From positions 1-14,129 of the forward strand of contig JASHYD010000891.1 in assembly GCA_030043175.1 (NCBI GenBank): DNA of 14,129 nucleotides, in the 5' to 3' direction. Positions 1 to 14,129 of the stretch are shown one piece after another; position 1 is the first letter of the stretch; each line of letters begins with the position of its first letter. The position numbers were made by a program, and so were the translations under genes. This DNA is from Xanthobacteraceae bacterium (GTDB lineage Bacteria > Pseudomonadota > Alphaproteobacteria > Rhizobiales > Xanthobacteraceae). Below the pieces are notes generated by a model. The model made no database searches. It was not told where the DNA came from and was given only the letters and a program-made list of their open reading frames with translations.

Positions 1-1137
1 ATCGGCGCCGCCCCGCGAAGTTCGCTCGGCGGGCAATCCTTGAATCCCCATGACCTCGCACGGTCGCCGGCAGGTTCCTCTAGTGGCACAGGCGTTGCTG
101 TCTCGGCGTCGTACGCTCCCCTCGGGATGGGGACCGATACAGGCGGTTCCATCCGGGGGCCATCGACGGCGAACGGCATTGTGGGCTTGAAACCGACGCA
201 TGGTCTGCTCAGCAGAAGTGGGATCATTCCACTTGCACTGACATTTGACACTGGGGGGCCAATGGCCCGTAGTGTCAGCGATGTGGCCGTTGCGCTTGGC
301 GCTATGACCGGCATTGATCCCGCCGACGCCGCTACGCAGAAAAGTGAAGGCAAGTTCTCAACCGACTACACGAAGGACCTGAAGATTGACGCGCTCAAAG
401 GTGCCCGTATCGGCATCGCGCGTGATTTTCTCGGTGCTGATCCGGATGTCGATTGGGTGATCGAAGCATCGCTCGACGCCATGCGGAAGGCAGGTGCGAC
501 AATCGTCGATGTACATTATCCGAAATGGCTGCTCGATTCGAAGCTTGAGTTCTTTAACGCAATCCTTTTGCCGGAATTTGCAGCGCAGATCAAAGACTAT
601 CTGGCCACCATCGGACCGGAATATCCCAAGACAATTCAAGATATGATCGACCGGACCAATCGCTTCACCGCGCCACGAGCGGATGGCGCTCGTCCCAATC
701 CAACTCGCTGGATCGTGTTCAAGCGTGAAGCATCGAGCGGAACTCTTGAGGACCACCGCTACACATCTGTCCGCGATTACGGTCTGCCACTCGTCCGGGC
801 GGCCGTCGAGGGACTCTTCGCTGCCGAGAAGCTTGATGCGATCGTTTATCCAACAGCGACTCGCAGGCCCGCATTGCTCACCGCGCCGCCCGACACGGCT
901 CCCCCAAGCCCGACCGCTTCAGCGACGAGCATCGCCAATCTCACGGGCTTCCCGGATCTGATCGTGCCCGCGGGATTCACCGGAGACAACCTTCCCGTCG
1001 GCATTTCTTTCTTCGGGCCCGCATTCAGCGAGCAGAAGCTTTTATCTCTCGGATACAGCTTCGAGCAAGCGACACACGCCCGGCGTCGGCCGGTACACGC
1101 GCCTGCGCTCAAGGGGGAATCGATATCAGTGCCTTAA
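1..1137 (+). CDS. Amidase-signature family hydrolase, 3' part (5' end outside window)
   Basis: The frame is open from base 1, so the N-terminus is missing; 378 residues remain. Amidase-signature enzymes hydrolyse amide bonds with a Ser-cisSer-Lys triad. The glycine/serine-rich core is visible: a GSSSG stretch whose first serine (codon 76-78) fits the cis-Ser, then GTDTGGSIRGPS, whose serine (codon 148-150) fits the nucleophile 24 residues later, the spacing known for the family. The catalytic lysine normally lies about 60 residues before the cis-Ser and so falls outside the window. The C-terminal part has the usual FPDLIVPAGF and LPVGISFFG blocks, so the 3' end looks complete. A TTG at 40 is only an internal leucine codon in the middle of the signature and not a start. 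The substrate cannot be told from sequence. The family assignment is firm; aspartyl/glutamyl-tRNA amidotransferase subunit A (GatA) is less likely because the C-terminal half differs. Confidence 0.93.
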   Translation: MGAAPRSSLGGQSLNPHDLARSPAGSSSGTGVAVSASYAPLGMGTDTGGSIRGPSTANGIVGLKPTHGLLSRSGIIPLALTFDTGGPMARSVSDVAVALGAMTGIDPADAATQKSEGKFSTDYTKDLKIDALKGARIGIARDFLGADPDVDWVIEASLDAMRKAGATIVDVHYPKWLLDSKLEFFNAILLPEFAAQIKDYLATIGPEYPKTIQDMIDRTNRFTAPRADGARPNPTRWIVFKREASSGTLEDHRYTSVRDYGLPLVRAAVEGLFAAEKLDAIVYPTATRRPALLTAPPDTAPPSPTASATSIANLTGFPDLIVPAGFTGDNLPVGISFFGPAFSEQKLLSLGYSFEQATHARRRPVHAPALKGESISVP

Positions 1138-1433: not shown

Positions 1434-2315
1434 TCAGCGTCGTGATTCTTTTCGGAACGACGCGGGCGTGATACCAAAGGCCTTCTGAAACGTCGCAGTC
1501 AAATGGCTTTGATTGGCAAAGCCAACGTCGAGAGCGATGGCGCTGATAGGGTGATCGCTATGTTGAAGCAGCTCTCGCGCGCGCTGCAGGCGGCGGGAGA
1601 GCACATATGCATAGGGTGGCGCACCGGTCGCTGCTCGAAAGCTTCGGGCAAAGTAGTCCAATGGCATTTGGGCTATCCGGGCAAGATCGGACAGCGAAAT
1701 GGCCGCATCCAGATTAGAGTCAATGTAGTCGGCTACGTGACAAACAGTTGCCGGGTCGAGAGGGCGACGTGTTCCCTCAAGTGGGTTTTGGCCTCCCAGC
1801 AAAGCCACGCGATGCAGCACTACGCCGACAAGATGCTGGACATAGGTGTTATCAGGTGAGTGGCCTGCCTCAACTTCGTCGGCCAGAGCAGTCAGCAATC
1901 CTGAGACGATCCGCTCAGCGCGGTTGCTCATCAAGGCTGGCGGGTTTGGCAATCCAACATCTCTGGCGATTTCAGGCCTGATCCAAAGGATACAGCACCT
2001 TATGTCGGCGTGCTGGTAGGCAGCACACCGCTCGACTCCCGCGGGTACCACCGATACGGTCCCGGCGCGGTCCCGCCCGCTGAATAATGCCTCGCCGCTG
2101 GCGGCAATCTCGGTTCGTGTGGTGCCTCCCGTCTCAGTCGTCATGATTGCGTGGTTCGGAGCTCTCCACGAGAGCTCCGCCTCGGCGCAGACCCACCTCA
2201 CGCGCCGAAGCATGATCCCCGAACCGCACCACGATGCGGCCTGAACCAGCGTATGCTGTTCTTCTCCCCGTATTCGATCGCGCGTCGGACGGTGTCGCAT
2301 GGCCTCGGCTGTCAT
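1434..2315 (-). CDS. AraC/XylS-family transcriptional regulator
   Basis: The protein has about 293 residues from the chosen ATG. The C-terminal ~100 residues form a typical AraC double helix-turn-helix: a first HTH around ISLSDLARIAQMPLDYFARSF and a second around ISAIALDVGFANQSHLTATF, ending in the usual FGITPASFR. The N-terminal part (SWRAPNHAIM, GRDRAGTVSVVPAGVER) looks like the cupin-type sensing domain of this family, with VPAGVER as a typical strand-turn. The frame stays open to 2648, but the extra residues upstream are Cys/Arg-rich and unlike the family, so a start at 2315 or 2300 is preferred. ATG 2213 has a better purine tract (GGGG 4 bases upstream) but would remove part of the expected sensing domain. 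The gene is divergent from the isochorismatase-like hydrolase, a common layout for a regulator and its target. The inducer is unknown. The family call is firm; the start is uncertain. Confidence 0.88.
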   Translation of the reverse strand: MTAEAMRHRPTRDRIRGEEQHTLVQAASWCGSGIMLRRVRWVCAEAELSWRAPNHAIMTTETGGTTRTEIAASGEALFSGRDRAGTVSVVPAGVERCAAYQHADIRCCILWIRPEIARDVGLPNPPALMSNRAERIVSGLLTALADEVEAGHSPDNTYVQHLVGVVLHRVALLGGQNPLEGTRRPLDPATVCHVADYIDSNLDAAISLSDLARIAQMPLDYFARSFRAATGAPPYAYVLSRRLQRARELLQHSDHPISAIALDVGFANQSHLTATFQKAFGITPASFRKESRR

Positions 2316-2533
2316 TCGAAGTATGCCCAAGACATAATAATAGCCGGCGCCCGCCGAGATAGCAGGCGGTACGTTCGACACTGCTGCGCATTGCTCGCAA
2401 GGAGGATGACCATAATCCCGAAAAGACGCCCGAATCTTGAAAGCCAAGCTGTACGGAGGACGGCATAGTGCGCCCGCAGCTGGTCCCAACCCGGCCAGCG
2501 CGATGGATACACTGGGCTGAGGGACAATTTCGC

Positions 2534-3091
2534 ATGGTACTTCCGACGCACGAGAATGCCGCTGTTCTGTTTCTCGATCTGCAGGACGAGATTGTAAAGA
2601 ATAGCCGCACGGTGCCGATCGAGCGGTTGCGCCGCACCACAGCCGCACTCGCCAAGCTGGCCGCGTTGCACAAGCTACCAGTGTTTCTCACTGCGCTGCC
2701 GGCCTACGGCGAGTTCCTCGCGAATGTATTGGACCCACTAGACAATCCACAGATTCGCAAACGCACCCAACCGACGGCCTTTGCGGATGGTGGCCTCGTC
2801 GACGCACTGCGGGCGAGCGGCCGTCGCGTCATCGTGCTTGCCGGCGTGGCAAGCGAAATCTCAGTGCAGCGCACCGCGCTCGACGCACTCGCTGCGGGCT
2901 ATATGGTGCATGTGGCGGTGGATGCCTGTGGAGGCGTTGATGCCCGCACCGAGGACGCGGCTTGGCGGCGTATCGTTGCGGCGGGCGGCGTCACCACCTC
3001 GGCGACCGCGTTTGCAACGGAACTTACTGGCGATTTCACCACCGAGCTCGGCGGCGCGACGCTCGGAATCGTATATGAAACCCTGGGCTGA
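2534..3091 (+). CDS. Isochorismatase-fold (cysteine hydrolase family) protein lacking the catalytic Cys
   Basis: The protein has 185 residues from ATG 2534, which is preceded by GAGGG about 10 bases upstream; a GTG at 2468 would add 22 unlikely residues. The isochorismatase-like fold shows an N-terminal strand ending in the conserved Asp (AVLFLDLQDE, D15), a basic segment before TAF (QIRKRTQPTAF, K76/R77) and the strand-loop GVASEISVQRTALDA. In active cysteine hydrolases the loop usually reads GV-T-D/E-V-C-V; here position 110 is serine. The normal Asp-Lys-Cys triad is therefore incomplete, and the protein may use another chemistry or be non-catalytic. Related proteins of the YcaC/nicotinamidase superfamily act on amides or isochorismate in the cytoplasm; the substrate here is unknown. 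The gene is divergent from the AraC-type regulator and upstream of the broken AbrB-type gene. Confidence 0.85.
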   Translation: MVLPTHENAAVLFLDLQDEIVKNSRTVPIERLRRTTAALAKLAALHKLPVFLTALPAYGEFLANVLDPLDNPQIRKRTQPTAFADGGLVDALRASGRRVIVLAGVASEISVQRTALDALAAGYMVHVAVDACGGVDARTEDAAWRRIVAAGGVTTSATAFATELTGDFTTELGGATLGIVYETLG

Positions 3092-3377
3092 GTTGTGATC
3101 GGATTTTCATCCGCCCAGGCAAGAACGCCGTCATCACGCCAGCCATGTTGATACCCAGGCTCGCCTACTCGCCAGCGGCAGAACCATGATGCATCTGCCC
3201 CGAGCGCGACCATTCTCCGAGATCGGGCCGTCATAGGCCCAGGTGGATTCGCGGTCGAGCCGCTTGGCAGGCCCGAACGCACGCTTCCGGAGTTCCGGCA
3301 ACGACACGGCGCGGGCTGTCGGCAACACCTGAATCATGTGCTTTGCCCTTGCGCGATCATGTTTAAGAGGGGGTCAT
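3092..3377. other. Intergenic spacer with possible gene remnant
   Basis: This stretch of 286 bases lies between the hydrolase stop and the AbrB-type start. Two overlapping minus-strand frames (about 3134-3337, and the upper part of 2899-3282) read like protein in places, for example ESTWAYDGPISENG in one and GYQHGWRDDGVLAWADEN in the other. That could be a frameshifted remnant, but neither frame has a ribosome binding site or a recognised family, so no gene is called. The last 13 bases carry the strong Shine-Dalgarno run (3365-3373) of the next gene. Confidence 0.35.
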
Positions 3378-4459
3378 ATGAACGGGAAACTCGGGCACGC
3401 GCTGCACTGGGGGATGCTCATCGGGCTATCACTGTTCATCGTGGCATGCCTGGAGTTGCTGCGGCTGCCCGCCGCGCTGCTCCTGGGCTCCATGGCGGCG
3501 GCGATCCTGTTCGCGGTGCGCGAGGCAGACCTCCGTGTTCAGCCGCTGCTCTTCGATGGCGCGCAGGCAGTCATCGGCTGCTTGATCGCCCGAGCTTTCC
3601 CCCTGTCGATTTTCGTCGAGATGGCCCATCACTGGGCGATCTTTCTGGGCGGGGTGGTGTCGGTCATGGCCGCCGCCGCTTTGCTGGGCTGGCTGTTGAC
3701 GGTCCGGCAGGTTCTTCCGGGCTCGACGGCGATTTGGGGAACCTTTCCGGGTGCTGCGATGGCCATGATGCTAATGGCAGAGAGCTTCGACGCCGATATC
3801 CGGCTGGTCGCGTTCATGCAATACCTCCGCGTTGTTCTGGTCGCGGTGGGGGCTACCGTCATCGCGAGGCTGTTACCCCATCGGTGGCGGGTGCCGTGTG
3901 GGATCTCGACTGGTTTGCCCACGTCGCCTGGCCTGCCTTTGCCGTGACTGCTGCCTTGGCGATCGTCGGCGCAGTGGCCGGCCAGCGGCTGCGCATCCCA
4001 GCCGGCCCGCTGTTGGTGCCAATGGTTGTCGGCGTGATCCTGCAGGATGCCGGGCTCATCAGGGTCGAACTGCCACCGTGGCTTCTCGCGGTGGCGTATC
4101 TGCTCGTGGGCTGGAGCATCGGCCTACGCTTCAACAGAACGATACTGACCTACGTCGCGAAGGCATTCGGCCGGGTTCTGGTATCGCTTCTTTTGCTGGT
4201 CGTGGTGTGCGCCGTTTTTGGTGGTGTACTCGTTGCCGTCGCCGACGTCGATCCGCTGACTGCCTATCTGGCAACCAGTCCTGGCGGCGCGGATTCGGTC
4301 GCCATCATCGCGGCCTCCACCAAAGTAGACATGCCGTTCGTCATGGCGATGCAGACCGGTCGTTTCGCCCTGGTGCTACTCACAGGTCCCGTGATTGCGC
4401 GGCTCCTCGCGACCTGGGCATCGATGCGCGTGCGGACGCAGACGCCGCACTGTCCCTGA
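3378..4459 (+). pseudogene. AbrB-family membrane transporter gene, disrupted by a -1 frameshift
   Basis: ATG 3378 has a strong ribosome binding site (AAGAGGGGG at 3365-3373). The first ~168 codons encode several hydrophobic segments (LGHALHWGMLIGLSLFIVACL, FLGGVVSVMAAAALLGWLL and others) and the conserved GTFPGAAMAMMLMAESFDAD. After about base 3875 this frame turns nonsensical and stops at 3947. The second half continues in the frame one base earlier (VWDLDWFAHVAWPAFAVTAALAIVGAVAG ... ATSPGGADSVAIIAAST) to the stop at 4457-4459. Each half carries the repeated motif (GTFPGAA / ATSPGGAD) typical of the AbrB duplication. Adding one base restores a single frame of 360 residues, the usual length. 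The likeliest site is the C4 run at 3876-3879, where CCCCC would read RLLPPSVAGAV. The family is annotated as AbrB-like membrane proteins, probably transporters. It is either a true pseudogene or a sequencing error. Confidence 0.85.
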
Positions 4460-6221: not shown

Positions 6222-7136
6222 TCAGGAGCGCTTGAAGGAGTTGTAGACCATGCGCAGCCAGTTCTGCGCCTGCTGATCGTTGGCGGCCCACTTCTTGTCG
6301 AGATCGGCCAACGGCTTCTCGGCAAGCACCTGCTGTTCGCTCTGGCCTTCATCGATTAATTTCTGGACGCGTTCGCGCGAGGTCACCAGCATTTCACGCC
6401 ACGCAACCAAGTCTGCCTTCTTGGCGAGCGCGCCATGGCCGGGCACGATCTTGGTGTTATCGTTTGACGTCTTGATATAGGCGTCGACCGCACGGATCAG
6501 GCCCCTGATATCGCCGCCGTTGGCGAAATCGATGGTGCTATAGCGGCCGGTATTGGTGAAGGTATCGCCGGTGGCCAGCACGTTGGCGTTCTGGAAATAG
6601 ACCCAGGTATCGCCATCGGTGTGCGCATTATACACGTGATTGAGAATCGCCCTTCGGCCGCCAGCTTCCACTGTCTTTGACCCGCCGATATAGGTTTCGG
6701 TCGGCAGCGCATCGGTTGACACGGGCGCGGTCTTGTTGCCGGTGAGGCCATTTGTGGTGCCGGCGGCGAGACGGGTCCTGATATTATCTTGGGCAACGAC
6801 GATCGCGCCGTCCTTGTGGAAGGACGCGTTCCCCCCGGTATGATCGCCATGATAGTGCGTGTCGATGAGATACTTGATAGGTAGCGGCGAGATTTTCTCA
6901 ATCGCGGCCTTGATCTTGTCGTGGAGCGGCGCGAACTCGCTGTCCACCATGATGATGCCGTCGGTGCCGACCGCGACCGTGATGTTGCCGCCCTGGCCTT
7001 GAAGTAGGTAAGTCTTGTTTCCAAGGTCCGTCGTCTTGATCTCGACCTTGGAGAAATCAACGTTTTGCTGCGCGACTGCAGTTCCGGCAAACAGAACGGC
7101 CGCACTTGCCAGCGCGGCGAGCGTGATATTCCTCAT
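6222..7136 (-). CDS. Exported metallo-beta-lactamase-fold hydrolase
   Basis: The protein has 304 residues from ATG 7136, which has a strong Shine-Dalgarno (GGAGGAG, 7 bases upstream); an ATG at 7190 would add 18 residues in front of the signal peptide and is rejected. The N-terminus (MRNITLAALASAAVLFAGTAVA) is a Sec signal peptide, so the enzyme should act in the periplasm. The metal-binding set is complete: HYHGDH (H94, H96, D98, H99), H172 in YNAHTDGD, D191 in ATGDTF and H234 in VPGHG, as expected for a dinuclear zinc MBL hydrolase. The ~50-residue helical tail (QKLIDEGQSEQQVLAEKPLADLDKKW) is a feature of a broad group of exported MBL proteins annotated as 'MBL fold metallo-hydrolase'. The substrate is unknown. 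Beta-lactamase activity is possible but not supported by any specific feature. It is transcribed divergently from the PLP enzyme gene. Confidence 0.93.
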   Translation of the reverse strand: MRNITLAALASAAVLFAGTAVAQQNVDFSKVEIKTTDLGNKTYLLQGQGGNITVAVGTDGIIMVDSEFAPLHDKIKAAIEKISPLPIKYLIDTHYHGDHTGGNASFHKDGAIVVAQDNIRTRLAAGTTNGLTGNKTAPVSTDALPTETYIGGSKTVEAGGRRAILNHVYNAHTDGDTWVYFQNANVLATGDTFTNTGRYSTIDFANGGDIRGLIRAVDAYIKTSNDNTKIVPGHGALAKKADLVAWREMLVTSRERVQKLIDEGQSEQQVLAEKPLADLDKKWAANDQQAQNWLRMVYNSFKRS

Positions 7137-7218
7137 GGTTGATCTCCTCCAATGACAACGACGCTCCTGGCTTGCGGCGACGCAAAACAAGCGGCGCAGG
7201 TCGATATCGGGGTTATCT

Positions 7219-7422: not shown

Positions 7423-8712
7423 ATGGACATTGCACGCTATCATAAGGCCCGGATCGGCAATCACGTGCTGAAGCCGGAGACCTTGATGCTTGGATACGGG
7501 TACGATCCGGCGCTTTCGGAAGGGTCGGTGAAGCCGCCAGTGTTCCTGACCTCGACCTTCGTGTTTCGAACGGCCGAAGAGGGGCGCGACTTCTTCGATT
7601 ACGCGGCCGGACGTCGAGAGCCACCCGCCGAGGGGAGAGCGGGGCTAGTATACTCCCGCTTCAACCACCCGAATCTCGAAATCGTCGAAGACCGACTTGC
7701 CGCCTACGAGGGAGCCGAAGAAGGTCTCGTGTTCTCGTCCGGCATGGCCGCGATCACGACGGCCATCCTGACGGATATCAGGCCCGGCGACGTGATCTTG
7801 CACAGCCGCCCCCTCTATGGCGGCACCGAGGTGCTGATTGAGAAAACCCTGACACCGTTCGGCATCCAGGCCGAGGGATTCACGGACGGGCTCGATGAGC
7901 GTCACATTCGTGGCGCGGCTGAACGTGGCATGGCCAAGGGCCGCGTGGCGATGATTTTCATCGAGACGCCGTCCAATCCCCTGGACACACTTGTCGATAT
8001 CGCACTCGTGCGGCGTCTTGCCGACGCGATCGGCAGCCAGCAAAACATGCGCCCGATCATTGCCTGCGACAACACCTTGCTCGGGCCGGTGTTCCAATCG
8101 CCTCTCGCACACGGCGCCGATCTGTCCATCTATTCGCTGACAAAGTATGTGGGTGGGCATAGTGATCTCATCGCCGGCGCCGTCATCGGCTCGCACCAGC
8201 ATCTGAGGCCGATCCGCGCCCTGCGCGGCGCCATCGGGACCCAGCTCGACCCGCACTCGTGCTGGATGTTGAGCCGTTCGCTGGAAACAGTGTCGTTGCG
8301 CATGGAGCGCGCGGCCACCAGTGCCGCGAAGGTGGCGCAATTCCTGGCCGAGCATCCGCAAGTGGTGCGTGTTCATTACCCGCCGCTGCGTTCTGCTGAT
8401 GATCCGGCGCGCCAGCTGATGGAGCGGCAATCGCGCTCCGCCGGCTCGACATTCTCGTTCGAGATCAAGGGCGGACAGGCGGAGGCGTTTGCATTCCTCA
8501 ATCAGCTCGAGGTGTTCAAGTTGGCGGTGAGCCTCGGGGGTACGGAATCGTTGATTTGCCACCCGGCGACGACCGTGCATTCCGGGCTCTCAGAGGAAGC
8601 GCGGGGTGCCATCGGGATTACGCCCGCTTTGATCCGGGTCTCGGTTGGCATCGAACATCCTGACGATCTTATCGCTGATATGGCACGAGCCTTTGAGCGG
8701 CCCAATGAATAA
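7423..8712 (+). CDS. Cys/Met-metabolism PLP enzyme (cystathionine gamma-synthase family)
   Basis: The protein has 429 residues; ATG 7423 follows GGGAGAAACCAGG. It is a fold-type I PLP enzyme of the trans-sulfuration group. Seen in order: the substrate/phosphate tyrosine in VYSRFNHPN (Y78), the phosphate loop SSGMAA (105-110), the stacking tyrosine in PLYGGTE (Y132), the ring-nitrogen aspartate in ACDNT (D216) and the Schiff-base lysine in [11 protein letters not shown] (K241). The C-terminal domain has the family blocks [18 protein letters not shown] and [17 protein letters not shown]. It is slightly longer than typical MetB/MetC/MegL (~380-400) owing to an N-terminal ~20-residue extension and the insert [15 protein letters not shown], found in a subgroup annotated only as 'cystathionine gamma-synthase family protein'. 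Sequence cannot decide between gamma-synthase, beta/gamma-lyase and O-acetylhomoserine sulfhydrylase activity. It converges with mazG. Confidence 0.93.
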
Positions 8713-8801: not shown

Positions 8802-9638
8802 CTACGACTCCCGGCGTTTTGCTTCATTCCACAGCTCGTCCATCTCCGCGAGCGTCGATTGCTCAGGTGTTTTTCCGGCTGTGGCGAGCGCTCGCTCGAT
8901 ATAACCGAAGCGGCGTTCGAACTTTTCGTTGGTGGTGCGCAGCGCCGCTTCCGGATCGGCGCCAAGATGGCGCGCAAGATTGGCAACGGCGAACAAGAGA
9001 TCGCCGACCTCATCTTGCGCCGAGCGCGGCTCGCCTGACGCTAGCGCGGCCGCAACCTCATCGGTCTCCTCGCGGATCTTTGCGAGCACCGCCAGGGGAT
9101 CGTTCCAGTCGAAGCCGACCTTGCCGGCCTTTTCCTGGAGCTTGAAGGCGCGCGTGAGGGCTGGGAGGGCAGGGGGGACGCCCGCCAGCGCGCCCGTGCT
9201 GCGCTCCCGGGCGTCCTTTGGATCAACCTCCCGGCGCGCGGCCCGCTCGGCTTTCTCCTGCGCCTTGATCCGGTCCCACAGCGCATTGACCGCCTCGAAA
9301 TGGAGACCGCGCGCGTCGCCGAACACGTGCGGGTGGCGCCGCACCAGCTTTTCCGTAATCGCCTCGACCACGTCGCCGAATCCGAAAAGGCCTGCTTCCT
9401 CGGCCATCCGGGCGTGAAACACCACCTGCAACAGGAGGTCGCCAAGTTCGTCCCGCAGATCCTCGAAATCACGCCGTTCGATCGCGTCCGCGACCTCATA
9501 GGCTTCCTCGATGGTGTAGGGCGCAATGGTGGAGAAGTTCTGCGCCAGATCCCATGGGCAGCCGGTATCGGCTGCGCGCAGCGCCGCCATAATCTCGATA
9601 AGACGGGTGATATCGCGCGAGGGAATGACATTGGCCAT
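8802..9638 (-). CDS. mazG: Nucleoside triphosphate pyrophosphohydrolase MazG
   Basis: The protein has 278 residues from ATG 9638 and is a two-domain MazG that hydrolyses NTPs/dNTPs to NMP and PPi. The N-terminal domain shows GCPWDLAQNFSTIAPYTIEEAYEVADAI...LRDELGDLLLQVVFHARMAEE; the EExxE...ExxD metal site is E44, E45, E48, E64 and D67. The second domain repeats the pattern (REETDEVAAAL...AQDEVGDLLFAVANLARH). The linker (KAERAARREVDPKDARERSTG) and the C-terminal FERRFGYIERAL...LDEMD-like block (TLAEMDELWNEAKR) are typical. The start at 9638 matches the family (PSRDITRLIEIMAALR follows at once) but lacks a good ribosome binding site. ATG 9731 has a better one (GAGGGA) and would add 31 polar residues. 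It stands alone and converges on the PLP gene. Confidence 0.95.
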   Translation of the reverse strand: MANVIPSRDITRLIEIMAALRAADTGCPWDLAQNFSTIAPYTIEEAYEVADAIERRDFEDLRDELGDLLLQVVFHARMAEEAGLFGFGDVVEAITEKLVRRHPHVFGDARGLHFEAVNALWDRIKAQEKAERAARREVDPKDARERSTGALAGVPPALPALTRAFKLQEKAGKVGFDWNDPLAVLAKIREETDEVAAALASGEPRSAQDEVGDLLFAVANLARHLGADPEAALRTTNEKFERRFGYIERALATAGKTPEQSTLAEMDELWNEAKRRES

Positions 9639-10340
9639 CGAAGTTGCGCGCTCGGGACCGCCGACCGATGTCGCAGGGGGAATGCGCGCGACTTGATCTG
9701 CGCTTCCCTTAGACTTGGAAGTTCGTTGCATGCCGATGCTTTCCCTCAAAGGATTTTCGAATGAAGCCTGGCCACACACGCAAGTGATCTTGTGGACGCA
9801 ATGTTTGGCGCGTTCGGCGACCTTTATAACGCCGCACCACAACAGCGCATTGGGGCTGACCGCGGGCGCAAGCGGACGGTCTGCCGGATGATTCCACGAC
9901 GCCCGCCTTTGTGCTGAGGTGCTACCAAGGCGGTGCGCCGCAATGCAAGCTGATTTCCGCTCGATGTCATGATGCCGGCCGCGCAGCCGCATCGCTCGCA
10001 CCTAACATGACGCTTTGCGGTTTGCCGGCACCCGCCGCGGATGTCCCGATTGATAATGCAGACGCGACCGCAAGGGTCGCCCCCGGGGCTCGCGACGACC
10101 GTATTCAGGCCCAAGATATCCACTGCGATCTCGCGTCGCGCCCGCGCATATTGGTTTTGCATCTTGACATCAGAACAAACAACGAACAGAAAGCAGTCCC
10201 GTGCGGGCGGGGAGGAATCGTTTTTGTCGAGGATAGCCGAGGAGGGCCCTGCGGTTGGCCCCAGTTGAGCGGGCGCCGGGATGGCTCGCCGTTCGATGCT
10301 GGCGGAGCCGGCCATGGCCCCGCATCGGGGGGGACGATCA
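9639..10340. other. Long non-coding spacer before the Wadjet operon
   Basis: About 600-700 bases (depending on the mazG start) separate the mazG start from jetA. Open frames on both strands (for example minus 9824-10315 and plus 9911-10375) are rich in Arg/Gly/Pro/Cys, lack ribosome binding sites and resemble no family, so I call none. No tRNA, direct repeats marking an insertion or toxin-antitoxin pair was seen. The stretch should contain the promoters of both divergent units; I cannot assign -35/-10 boxes. Confidence 0.55.
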
Positions 10341-11810
10341 ATGGATTATCGTACGCTCGAAACGCTGCAACATAGGCATCCTGCGTGGCGGCTGCTTAAG
10401 GCCGACCATGCGCCCCTCATCATTTGCTTCTTGCACGAGACCTTCATCCGCCCGAACGTGCGTACCCTGGCGCAGGGCGAGCTCGTCGCACGGTTGGAGG
10501 ACTGTCTGTTTTCCCTGCGGGCCGATCTTGGCGAGGACAAGTTTCCTCGCGAGGCCGCCCATTATCTCGATAATTGGGCCTCTGACGAACATGCCTGGTT
10601 GCGCAAGTACTATCCACCAAACAGTGACGAGGTCCATTTCGACCTCACGCCGGCAACCGAACGGGCCATAGACTGGATTTTCGACCTTGGACAGCGGCGT
10701 TTCGTCGGCACCGAATCGCGACTGATGGCGATCTTCGATCTGCTGCATCAACTTGTCCAAGGAACCGAGATGGACCCGTGGGCGCGAATCAGCGAGCTTG
10801 AGCGCCGCAAGCAGGAAATCGACCAGGAGATCACGCACATCCGCGACGGCGCACTTTACGTGCTCGATGCGACCCAGATCAAAGAGCGATTTTCGCACAT
10901 CGCGACGATGGCGCGCGGACTGTTGTCGGATTTCCGGGAGGTTGAGCAGAACTTTCGCGATCTCGATCGCGCGATTCGTGAGCGAATTGCGACCTGGGAC
11001 GGAGGAAAGGGCGCGCTCCTCGACGAAATATTCGGCGAGCGCGACGCCATTGCGGATTCCGATCAGGGCAAGAGCTTTCGCGCGTTCTGGGATTTCCTGA
11101 TGTCGCCGTCGCGCCAAAGCGAGCTGACGGAGTTGTTGTCGAGGGTGTTCGAACTCGATCCCGTCCAGGAGCTCAAGCCGGATCGACGCCTGCTGCGCAT
11201 TCATTATGATTGGGTGCAGGCGGGCGAAAATACCCAACGCACCGTGGCGCGGCTCTCCGAGCAGTTGCGGCGCTATCTCGACGACAAGGCATGGCAGGAC
11301 AACCGTCGGATCATGAAGCTCGTGAGGGACATCGAGCAACGCGCTGTCGCGATTCGTGACACGGCGCCGGCCGGGCCGGTGATGGCTCTCGATGAGCCGG
11401 CACCCGACATCGCCCTGGTGATGGATCGACCGCTGTTCACGCCGCCGTTAAAACCGCAAATCGAGGAAATTGCCGCCGATGCCGTCGAAGACGTGCCGTC
11501 GGATGCACTTTTCAACCATGTCTATGTGGACAAGGAACGTCTGGCCGGGCGCATCCGACGCGCGCTGCAGACGCGATCGCAGGTATCACTTGTCGATTTG
11601 GTAGAGGCGCATCCGCTTGAGCAGGGCCTGGCGGAGCTTGTGGCCTACGTGAGTCTTGCGGCGGCCGAAGCCGCCTGCGTCATTGACGATGCACAGCGTC
11701 AGACTGTGAGATGGACCGACGGTGAGGGCAGCGCTCGACAAGCGACGCTGCCGATGGTGGTGTTCTGTCGTCCGGTCGCATCGGCCGGCCGACCGGGAAG
11801 ACGGCGATGA
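10341..11810 (+). CDS. jetA: Wadjet system protein JetA (DUF3375, kleisin-like)
   Basis: The protein has 489 residues from ATG 10341, chosen because a seven-G run (10327-10333) forms a strong Shine-Dalgarno; an in-frame ATG at 10281 has none. It is recognised as DUF3375 from the opening (MDYRTLETLQ, HPAWRLLKADHAPLIICFLHETF), the helical middle (GTESRLMAIFDLLHQLV, ISELERRKQEIDQEI, ATQIKERF) and the C-terminal YVDKERLAGRIRRALQTRSQVSLVDLVEAHPLEQGLAELVAYVSLA winged-helix-like segment. JetA is the MukF-like kleisin that bridges the JetC ATPase heads and binds JetB. The complex extrudes DNA loops and, with JetD, cleaves small circular plasmids. Length is normal. The stop overlaps the jetB start in ATGA, showing operon structure. 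The position as first gene followed by DUF4194 and an SMC-like ATPase supports the call strongly. Confidence 0.95.
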   Translation: MDYRTLETLQHRHPAWRLLKADHAPLIICFLHETFIRPNVRTLAQGELVARLEDCLFSLRADLGEDKFPREAAHYLDNWASDEHAWLRKYYPPNSDEVHFDLTPATERAIDWIFDLGQRRFVGTESRLMAIFDLLHQLVQGTEMDPWARISELERRKQEIDQEITHIRDGALYVLDATQIKERFSHIATMARGLLSDFREVEQNFRDLDRAIRERIATWDGGKGALLDEIFGERDAIADSDQGKSFRAFWDFLMSPSRQSELTELLSRVFELDPVQELKPDRRLLRIHYDWVQAGENTQRTVARLSEQLRRYLDDKAWQDNRRIMKLVRDIEQRAVAIRDTAPAGPVMALDEPAPDIALVMDRPLFTPPLKPQIEEIAADAVEDVPSDALFNHVYVDKERLAGRIRRALQTRSQVSLVDLVEAHPLEQGLAELVAYVSLAAAEAACVIDDAQRQTVRWTDGEGSARQATLPMVVFCRPVASAGRPGRRR

Positions 11811-12397
11811 CGGAGGCAAACGCGCTTTCCATCACCGTCGTCTCGCTGATGAAAGGCATTGCCGACCGCGAAAGCGATCCCGCCCTGTGGCAGTCGCTGA
11901 TCGGCATTCAGGCGCGGGTTCGCGACTACGTCGCCTGCCTTGGCCTAGACCTTGTGCTCGATGAATCGGAAGGCTTTGCCTACCTTCGGCAGAGGTCGGC
12001 AGAGGAGGGGGCGGGAGAATTCCCACGGCTCGTTCCACGCCGGCAGCTTGGCTACCAACTCAGCCTGATGCTGGTGCTGTTGAGAAAAAAGCTGGCGGAA
12101 TTCGACGCCACCAGCGGCGAGTCACGCCTTATTCTTGGCCGCGATGACATCGTTGAGATGATGCGTCTGTTTCTTGCCGAGACCGGCAACCAGGTCCGGC
12201 TGACCAGCCGAATCGAAGCCGATATCAATCGCGTCGTGGAGATGGGGTTCCTGCGACGGCTGCGCGGGACGGATGACAGATTTGAAGTCCGACGTATCCT
12301 CAAGGCTTTCGTCGATGCCCAATGGCTCGCCGAATTCGACCGGCGCCTTGCGGCTTACCGGTCCCATGCGTCAAGCGAGCAGGTAGCGGTCGAATGA
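11807..12397 (+). CDS. jetB: Wadjet system protein JetB (DUF4194, KITE-like)
   Basis: The protein has 196 residues. ATG 11807 lies inside the jetA stop (ATGA), with GGGAAGACGG just upstream as a possible ribosome binding site. Typical DUF4194 features are an N-terminal helical part (SITVVSLMKGIADRESDPALWQSLI), LDLVLDESEGFAYLRQR, FPRLVPRRQLGYQLSLMLVLLRKKLAEFDA, then DIVEMMRLFLAETGN and IEADINRVVEMGFLRRLRG, with a closing RRILKAFVDAQWLAEFDRRLAAY. JetB is the MukE-like KITE subunit, a tandem winged-helix dimer that binds the JetA kleisin in the condensin-like complex. Length agrees with the family. A 10-base tandem repeat at 11986-12005 does not disturb the frame. The stop overlaps the jetC start, again ATGA. 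Confidence 0.95.
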   Translation: MTEANALSITVVSLMKGIADRESDPALWQSLIGIQARVRDYVACLGLDLVLDESEGFAYLRQRSAEEGAGEFPRLVPRRQLGYQLSLMLVLLRKKLAEFDATSGESRLILGRDDIVEMMRLFLAETGNQVRLTSRIEADINRVVEMGFLRRLRGTDDRFEVRRILKAFVDAQWLAEFDRRLAAYRSHASSEQVAVE

Positions 12398-14129
12398 ACG
12401 AAATGCTTGTGAGCCCTCCCGTCGCGTCCGCCGAAGCCCCGCAACCCGAGCCTGCGCCGCAAACCGGCGAGGCGCTCGGCTTGGATCCCCGGCCGCAAAC
12501 GCGGGCGGAACTCCGCCTAGACTGTCCGTCGCCGGTGGGGGAGGGCAGGGCGGGTGCCGCTCGTGCCGGGATGCGCCTTCACCGCTGCGAATTCTTCAAC
12601 TGGGGAACCTTTCACGGACGCGTCTGGGGGCTTGACCTCAACGGCGACAACACGCTGCTGACGGGAGACATCGGGTCCGGGAAATCCACCCTTGTTGACG
12701 CAATCACCACGTTTTTGGTGCCGACTCAGAAGATTTCCTACAACAAAGCCGCCGGCGCGGATTCGAAGGAACGCGACCTGAAGTCATACGTCCTCGGGCA
12801 CTTCAAATCCGAGCGCGGCGACGCCGGTTTCGCGGCAAGGCCGGTGGCGCTGCGGGGGCTCAACACCTATTCGGTCATCCTGGGCCGGTTCCGCAACGAC
12901 GGCTTCCAGCAGGAAGTGACTCTGGCGCAGGTGTTCTGGTTCAAGGACGCGCACGGACAGCCAAGCCGGTTTTACGTTGTTGCGGATCAACCGCTCGCTA
13001 TCTCGGAGCACTTCAGCGACTTCGGCGCCGACATCAATGCGTTGAAGAAGAGATTGCGGGCGATGCAGCGCGTTGAGGTGCACGATACCTTTCCGCCCTA
13101 CAGCGCCTCGTTTCGCCGGCGCTTCGGCATCGAGAACGAACAGGCGCTCGACCTTTTCCATCAAACGGTGTCAATGAAATCGGTGGGGAACTTAACCGAG
13201 TTCGTGCGCCATCACATGCTCGAAACGTTTCCGGTCGAGGCGCGCATCGATGCACTGATGGCGCATTTCGACAACCTCAACCGAGCGCACGAATCGGTTC
13301 TGAAGGCGAAGGCGCAAATCACGCGCCTGACCCCTCTGATTGCCGATTGCGATCAGCACACGACGCTCATGCAGGAAGCGCAGACGCTGCGCGGCTGCCG
13401 GGATGCCCTGCGCGCCTTCTTTGCCGGCGTGAAGGCGGGGCTGCTCGAGCGACGTTGCGAAAGCTTAGGCTTGGATCTCGACCGGCTGTCCGAACGCATT
13501 GCCGTACTCGATGACAAGGAAGGCAATCTTTACAGCCGGCGCGATGAAATCAAACGCGCAATCGCGGAGAATGGCGGGGATCGCATCGAGAACCTCAAAC
13601 GCGAGATCGCCGCACGGGAAACTCTCAAGAAAGACCGCATGGGGCGCGCCGAGCAGTATGCCGGATTGGCCCGCACGGCCGGGCTGCCTGACAGCTCAGA
13701 CGCGGATGCTTTCGCAGCCAATCGCGCCGTGATCGCGTCGGAGAGCGAAGCCATTGCGGCCCGAAAAGCCGAGACACAGAATGCCATCACCGACGAATCT
13801 GTCGCGCTCCAGCAGCTGCGCATGCAGCACCTGGAAATCGACCGAGAAATCGAGTCCCTGAAAAAGCGCCGTTCGAACATCCCGGCGAACATGCTGGCGA
13901 TTCGCGATAGTCTGTGCCGCGAACTGAGAGTTGATGAAGAAAAATTTCCTTTTGCCGGAGAATTGATCCAGGTCCGGGAAGAGGAGACTGCGTGGGAAGG
14001 CGCAATCGAACGCGTCCTGCATAGCTACGCTCTGTCGCTGCTGGTTCCGGACGAAGATTATCCGCGGGTCGCCGAGTGGGTTGAGCGCACGCACCTCCGC
14101 GGCCGGCTGGTCTATTACCGGGTGAGAGC
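12394..14129 (+). CDS. jetC: Wadjet system protein JetC (SMC/MukB-like ATPase), 5' part
   Basis: The frame is open from ATG 12394 (ATGA overlap with jetB) to the right edge: 578 codons, with the 3' part outside the window. Residues 60-100 (MRLHRCEFFNWGTFHGRVWGLDLNGDN, then the Walker A GDIGSGKST with K97) form the start of an SMC-type ATPase head. NKAAGADSKERDLKSYVLGHFKSERGD and VSMKSVGNLTEFVRHHMLE follow, as in Wadjet/MksB ATPases. From about residue 290 to 490 the chain is a charged helical coiled-coil arm (LGLDLDRLSERIAVLDDKEGNLYSR and following). From about 500 the segment FAGELIQVREEETAWEGAIERVL...LLVPDEDY...LVYYRV resembles the SMC hinge. The C-terminal arm, signature motif and Walker B lie outside the window. 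Residues 1-59 are an unusual Pro/Ala-rich extension. JetC drives ATP-powered loop extrusion on target plasmids. Confidence 0.95.
   Translation, partial: MNEMLVSPPVASAEAPQPEPAPQTGEALGLDPRPQTRAELRLDCPSPVGEGRAGAARAGMRLHRCEFFNWGTFHGRVWGLDLNGDNTLLTGDIGSGKSTLVDAITTFLVPTQKISYNKAAGADSKERDLKSYVLGHFKSERGDAGFAARPVALRGLNTYSVILGRFRNDGFQQEVTLAQVFWFKDAHGQPSRFYVVADQPLAISEHFSDFGADINALKKRLRAMQRVEVHDTFPPYSASFRRRFGIENEQALDLFHQTVSMKSVGNLTEFVRHHMLETFPVEARIDALMAHFDNLNRAHESVLKAKAQITRLTPLIADCDQHTTLMQEAQTLRGCRDALRAFFAGVKAGLLERRCESLGLDLDRLSERIAVLDDKEGNLYSRRDEIKRAIAENGGDRIENLKREIAARETLKKDRMGRAEQYAGLARTAGLPDSSDADAFAANRAVIASESEAIAARKAETQNAITDESVALQQLRMQHLEIDREIESLKKRRSNIPANMLAIRDSLCRELRVDEEKFPFAGELIQVREEETAWEGAIERVLHSYALSLLVPDEDYPRVAEWVERTHLRGRLVYYRVR

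Follow-up and report, generated by a model that had tools for sequence, protein, structure and literature searches.

Type I Wadjet genes beside mazG in a Hyphomicrobiales chromosome, and in-frame palindromic repeats in jetC and jetD of a relative

Results

The jetABC genes and a complete related operon

We analysed a 14,129-nucleotide stretch (the window; contig JASHYD010000891.1, assembly GCA_030043175.1) from a Xanthobacteraceae bacterium, at the right edge of which lie jetA, jetB and the first part of jetC of a type I Wadjet plasmid-defence system (Table 1). The genes follow one another in the order A-B-C with ATGA overlaps at 11807-11810 (jetA/jetB) and 12394-12397 (jetB/jetC). A first-pass annotation made from the sequence alone had described DUF3375, DUF4194 and an SMC-like (structural maintenance of chromosomes) ATPase in succession with two such overlaps, correctly to the base. 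The profile searches it had proposed matched DUF3375, DUF4194 and JetC1. In Pfam, JetA matched DUF3375 (PF11855, 4e-156; window frame 10281-11807), JetB matched DUF4194 (PF13835, 2e-45; frame 11807-12394) and the JetC part matched the AAA_29 P-loop domain (3.4e-23; frame 12394-14127). The top PADLOC matches were JetA1 (9.5e-217), JetB1 (1.1e-83) and JetC1 (2.3e-224), and chains of solved complexes were matched by JetA (8dk1, 1.6e-23), JetC (8dk2, 5.7e-48) and JetB. These E-values exclude chance matches to the family models, and the assignment to jetABC of type I Wadjet is borne out by all three sources. The Walker A motif of JetC was invariant or nearly so in an alignment of 38 sequences (A2). 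A longer in-frame open reading frame (ORF) begins at 10281, but we place the jetA start at 10341 because residue 21 of this longer frame is where both the top JetA profile and the ortholog described below (L001:446) start. No Rfam family matched at gathering scores.

The window holds 578 codons of jetC, compared with 1163 and 1203 amino acids in the full-length JetCs of two relatives. The first of these, P0002, is 97% identical to the window part and lies on a 16,434-base contig; the second belongs to L001, the one related locus given by a JetA scan of the genome collection, on a Hyphomicrobiales metagenome-assembled contig of genome G001. An SbcC_Walker_B domain is present in both. L001 carries all four genes, jetA, jetB, the full jetC (1203 codons) and, at L001:6286-7695, jetD; next come a Uma2-type gene, a metallo-beta-lactamase-fold (MBL-fold) gene, tatD and metG. 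Its JetD has DUF3322 and JetD_C domains. At the sequence level it resembles solved MksG and JetD, and the top matches of its predicted fold were 8b7f and 7til, from a modest model with a mean predicted local distance difference test score (pLDDT) of 66. Glu 322 of this JetD aligns with the mutated position 248 of the JetD(E248A) chain 8q72, at a position invariant in 35 JetDs; judged by alignment, the catalytic Toprim glutamate is kept. A protein 100% identical to the L001 JetD (P0121) is named as Xanthobacteraceae bacterium. The Uma2-type gene (L001:7692-8327), which encodes a putative endonuclease, begins within the last bases of jetD, and the two may share a transcript.

These data bear on whether the genes instead encode a chromosome-organising condensin of the MksBEF type that has lost its nuclease, the placement that the annotation had named as refuting its own. 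Both kinds are MukBEF-like SMC complexes, and the relative's JetD matches solved MksG as well. In favour of a nuclease-free MksBEF, JetB also matches Pfam MksE (2.2e-16), and no jetD, whose absence downstream the annotation had named as a further refuting result, is visible inside the window. Against it, the DUF4194 and JetB1 models score far higher, the type I JetA, JetB and JetC models score best, DUF3375 is present, and jetD stands downstream of jetC both in the syntenic relative and in 5/5 annotated plasmid operons that we opened (three further ones carried no annotation). We consider an MksBEF-type complex extremely improbable, and the type I Wadjet assignment is favoured.

Table 1 Features of the window and their positions
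Feature	Position	Strand	Description
jetA	10341..11810	+	489 amino acids, kleisin-like subunit, DUF3375
jetB	11807..12397	+	196 amino acids, KITE subunit, DUF4194; short, lacking the N-terminal region present in solved JetBs
jetC	12394..14129	+	SMC ATPase, N-terminal half; window end cuts the gene
JetC N-terminal tail	12394..12570	+	59 codons preceding MRLHRCEFFNWGTF; low-confidence, probably disordered
Walker A motif GDIGSGKST of JetC	12664..12690	+	read from the translation
Possible weak trace of repeat R2 in jetC tail	12530..12561	+	84% over 32 nucleotides, blastn E 0.001
mazG	8802..9644	-	left neighbour at shared site; Pfam MazG 3.9e-41; ortholog beside the same operon in G001
Cys/Met pyridoxal-phosphate (PLP) enzyme	7423-8712		ordinary neighbour
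MBL-fold protein	6222-7190		ordinary neighbour
Isochorismatase-type protein	2468-3091		ordinary neighbour
AraC-type regulator	1434-2648		ordinary neighbour
Amidase	1-1137		ordinary neighbour

Selection on the operon

Between the window and L001, amino-acid identity was 89.0% for JetA, 87.2% for JetB, 89.8% for the JetC core part and 84.9% for MazG, and ratios of nonsynonymous to synonymous substitution rates (dN/dS, Nei-Gojobori) were 0.117, 0.137, 0.100 and 0.171, respectively. Constraint on the operon is at least as strong as that on its neighbour mazG. A decaying system, with jetC or jetD broken beyond the window or function impaired by repeat insertions, would fit with an expanded JetC tail and with the repeat peptides inserted in the relative's JetC and JetD (see below), and the window shows no more than about half of jetC. 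The dN/dS of 0.10-0.14 across jetA, jetB and the jetC core, the open frames in both species and the retained catalytic glutamate of the relative's JetD all speak against decay. So do the positions of the inserts, in segments with pLDDT below 50, though weakly, as JetD is poorly modelled throughout residues 1-111. Decay is thus very unlikely.

Chromosomal site and distribution

The mazG ortholog of G001 sits at the end of another contig, and the two contig ends overlap by 107 identical bases; mazG therefore adjoins jetA in G001, as in the window. The synteny comparison proposed by the annotation thus finds the same adjacency in a relative, and the joined ends give the order mazG-jetABCD-uma2-mbl-tatD-metG. 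We then surveyed 60 stretches downstream of the MBL-fold gene, one of them only 177 bases long, in family members of G001; 112 genomes, counting G001, had a match, and 60 of them were used. None had a jetA or jetD match (tblastn, 1e-8). In 39 of these 60 Wadjet-free stretches mazG lay downstream of mbl, at most 1.5 kb away in 23, and the PLP gene of the window was not found in the 60. From these gene orders, the operon looks to occupy one chromosomal site common to two species. Our reading is that, before the two species diverged, the Wadjet operon was inserted in the opposite orientation into a metG-tatD-mbl-mazG block, at an approximately placed junction of which the window shows only the mazG side.

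The shared site, and an mbl-mazG order found in many, not all, Wadjet-free relatives, support the annotation's suggestion of a settled chromosomal copy. Its mazG and PLP neighbours have Pfam support, and its statement that no transposase or integrase lies nearby agrees with Pfam, which named none in the 16 window frames tested (other small ORFs lay outside the test). Viewing mbl-mazG as a possible defence hotspot, we listed the open frames of at least 120 amino acids for 16 of the 39 mazG stretches, those with gaps of at least 1.7 kb. Judged by eye and without a defence-gene scan, these frames resemble ordinary genes, one or two of them transposase-like and some sensor-like.

In order and class searches that scored at most two candidates per genome, 2/297 genomes of the order had a JetC match at E <= 1e-50, one being G001 and the other having 29% identity; at E <= 1e-30, the one match among 385 genomes of the class was G001. 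Rarity, if real, is confined to the close kind, because DUF4194 proteins were present in 51/398 genomes of the phylum, G001 included.

Elsewhere in the window, an AbrB-family (PF05145) gene at 3336-4459 spans two frames, with 3336-3947 covering profile positions 1-137 and the other frame 143-313, through either a frameshift in the gene or a sequence error.

The JetC N-terminal tail

The JetC tail of the window is about 58-59 residues long (58 by the measure used for homologs) and has a predicted pLDDT below 50 over residues 1-56. Among the best 120 of 7951 JetC homologs, 119 of which were measurable, the 100 more distant ones had a median of 21 and a maximum of 37 residues before the conserved core (a few of them are truncated), and the 19 closest had 22 to 103. 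The tails of P0014-P0016 (99-103 residues) carry another recurrent-looking peptide (SPDGAQRNPG...LHPGYE), a putative translated repeat.

We considered that the tail may be untranslated, with JetC starting at an internal ATG at 12571 (MRLHRCEF) and 12394-12570 forming a spacer with repeat debris. This internal ATG is frequent in the JetC subfamily, the tail diverges fast (44.8% identity between window and L001, dN/dS 0.49, from a poor alignment), and the portions available of a paper on intragenic repeats warn of misannotated N-termini (PMC3733652). However, the upstream ATG is overlapped by the jetB stop in both species, the first residues (MNExLVSPPxA) are common to both, and the tail is stop-free across 177 nucleotides in the window and 297 in L001. 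Moreover, many JetCs have GFRL instead of GMRL, with no methionine there, and must start upstream. An untranslated tail is therefore unlikely, and we treat the tail as part of JetC.

Palindromic repeats in jetC, jetD and other genes of the relative

In L001, dispersed palindromic repeats are in frame in both the JetC tail and a JetD linker. Repeat searches scored about 40 candidates per genome (for the G001 counts of R1, R2 and the window tail) or 14 (for family genomes), and the counts are lower bounds. The JetC tail holds R1 (L001:2540-2700), a dispersed palindromic repeat of about 100 nucleotides whose folding exceeds that of shuffled sequences (z -4.64) and which has at least 44 matches in G001 (a count that includes R1 itself), many covering only part of it. 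The linker between DUF3322 and JetD_C holds R2 (L001:6935-7080), with at least 43 matches in G001, itself included, most only about 22-40 nucleotides long. R1 and R2 share 53 nucleotides at 79% identity. Among 16 aligned JetDs, five closer ones had shorter pieces at the same linker (mostly QAGEGR-like) and ten others had none.

Copies of R1 also occur within other genes. Open frames around repeat copies are uninformative alone, since GC-rich DNA keeps many frames open. R1 lay inside ten tested G001 open frames, nine with Pfam domains, and in 5/10 it had matched domains of a single protein on both sides (DnaX, HrpB, UvrD, a POR-DUF6537 protein and a hydantoinase). Several copies are read in one frame (SPSPLVGEGxGG...PTPDPSP) in unrelated genes, for example dnaX, hrpB and uvrD, and others in other frames. 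The UvrD insert of G001 (residues 339-372) corresponded to 0 or 1 residue in 7/7 relatives from the order search and in 1/12 from the family search; nine family members had other inserts of 10-32 residues at this site, and two relatives (L117, L118) were unreadable. On these alignments it appears as if the UvrD linker were a repeated landing site for differing inserts (L107-L125). Outside G001, R1-like DNA was found in at least 10 of 60 family genomes, as weak matches.

The window JetC tail showed no excess folding (z +0.66). Its R2-like match (Table 1) is near background, because an R1 match of equal E, 16 nucleotides long, lies at 13708-13723 of the window. Of at least 39 weak window matches to G001 (E up to 1), 23 fall at 12505-12568 and the two best elsewhere. 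We regard a degenerate repeat trace in the window tail as possible.

Intragenic REPs (repetitive extragenic palindromic sequences), also in repair genes, are already in print, according to the portions available of PMC3733652 and PMC2229807, and the in-gene repeats of L001 are for that reason a further case of a known kind. Like Rickettsia palindromic elements and intragenic REPs as described there, they are dispersed palindromic repeats in frame within genes, including UvrD-type repair genes. What sets them apart is their host, a member of the Hyphomicrobiales, and their location in two genes of a defence operon, jetC and jetD, which those portions do not name; we have not assigned them to a published family.

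The JetB N-terminal region and the JetD contact

In the excerpts available of a 2023 review (PMC10586767), JetD makes multiple contacts with JetABC, one of them through an IFDR motif at the JetB N-terminus; among the literature matches listed for JetB and JetD, IFDR occurred only in this review. In alignments with solved JetBs, residue 14 of the window JetB pairs with their residue 56 or 60, such that about 42-46 N-terminal residues are absent, and there is no earlier in-frame start. The motif position in JetB is taken from the review excerpts rather than from the solved JetB sequences. No IFDR-like motif ([IVLM]F[DE][RK]) was found in the window JetA, JetB or JetC part. Judged from these alignments, JetD would need to make do with its remaining contacts.

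We surveyed the genomes with DUF4194 proteins, leaving one of the 51 out. Of 59 operons, nine had no JetB match to a small profile and three were weak at the 1e-6 limit, leaving 47 measured operons (the window and G001 included), 35 with short and 12 with long JetB. JetB starts were picked by script as those nearest to the upstream stop, the cut of 28 residues was our choice, and the short class includes L130 (a short frame, its JetC not parsed) and the distant L177. The pattern [IVLF]F[DE][RKQTAS] occurred in the JetB tail of 0/35 short and 5/12 long forms, and L168 literally reads IFDR. The short-JetB kind keeps jetD in three annotated cases, Thiodictyon and two Streptomyces plasmids.

A swap between JetB and JetC tails by length was not supported, as long-JetB operons have JetC tails of similar length. 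Motif counts speak partly for and partly against a swap. A narrow pattern, [LIVF][DE]F, occurred in the JetC tails of 19/28 short-JetB and 0/9 long-JetB operons, a count that omitted six operons, including the window, whose JetB start lies downstream of the anchor. A wider motif, which adds [LIVM]F[DENST] and for which these six were taken as short, occurred in 22/34 short and 7/9 long. Both motifs were picked after viewing the tails, and the counts are not independent because many of these genomes are closely related. In the list of JetC homologs, the wider motif was present in 5/75 of the top entries and in 22/45 of those that follow. Neither motif is present in the window JetC tail, nor in JetC of the xFD-type operons L133, L168 and L173 (the latter two by eye), a set that leaves out L170, whose JetC was not parsed. 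One candidate for an alternative JetD contact in short-JetB operons is the JetC tail.

Discussion

The combined evidence makes it very probable that the window carries part of a type I Wadjet (JetABCD) operon in a Hyphomicrobiales chromosome, with mazG on one side and, as seen in the relative, a conserved mbl-tatD-metG block on the other. Several observations weigh against this: jetD and the half of JetC with the signature and Walker B motifs lie beyond the window end, a consensus scan (a weak test) found no promoter-like site upstream, and in 21 of the 60 surveyed stretches mazG was not found downstream of mbl inside the stretch. The genes share families, order and an SMC head with Walker A with the solved type I JetABCD systems (8as8/8bfn/8q72, 8dk1-8dk3, 7til), to whose JetD the relative's JetD is matched. 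They differ from them in a JetB that begins 42-46 residues later, without the IFDR-like motif, and in a longer JetC tail.

The system is an ordinary type I Wadjet member, and Wadjet itself is already well described. A literature search for Wadjet in Hyphomicrobiales found no paper. By analogy with the Wadjet literature, JetABC would load on DNA, where it is proposed to extrude loops, and on a small circle the two motors would collide and JetD would cut the plasmid. In the present complex, JetD would engage without the JetB N-terminal region.

A broader proposal is that many type I Wadjets lack a JetB docking tail and recruit JetD through the JetC tail, and that in this clade the JetC tail and JetD linker are landing sites for repeats, so that mobile repeats may re-tune how far a defence nuclease reaches or how it is auto-inhibited. 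We regard it as quite unlikely, and the more so since JetD is reported to make further contacts besides that through IFDR.

Activation of JetD by JetABC is called unresolved in the excerpts available of the 2023 review (PMC10586767), and operons without one reported JetB-JetD contact would offer a comparative test of it. The repeats in the relative's jetC and jetD may likewise serve as a natural set of linker-length variants, and the two structural details, the JetC tail and the short form of JetB, may be of interest to specialists in SMC nucleases.

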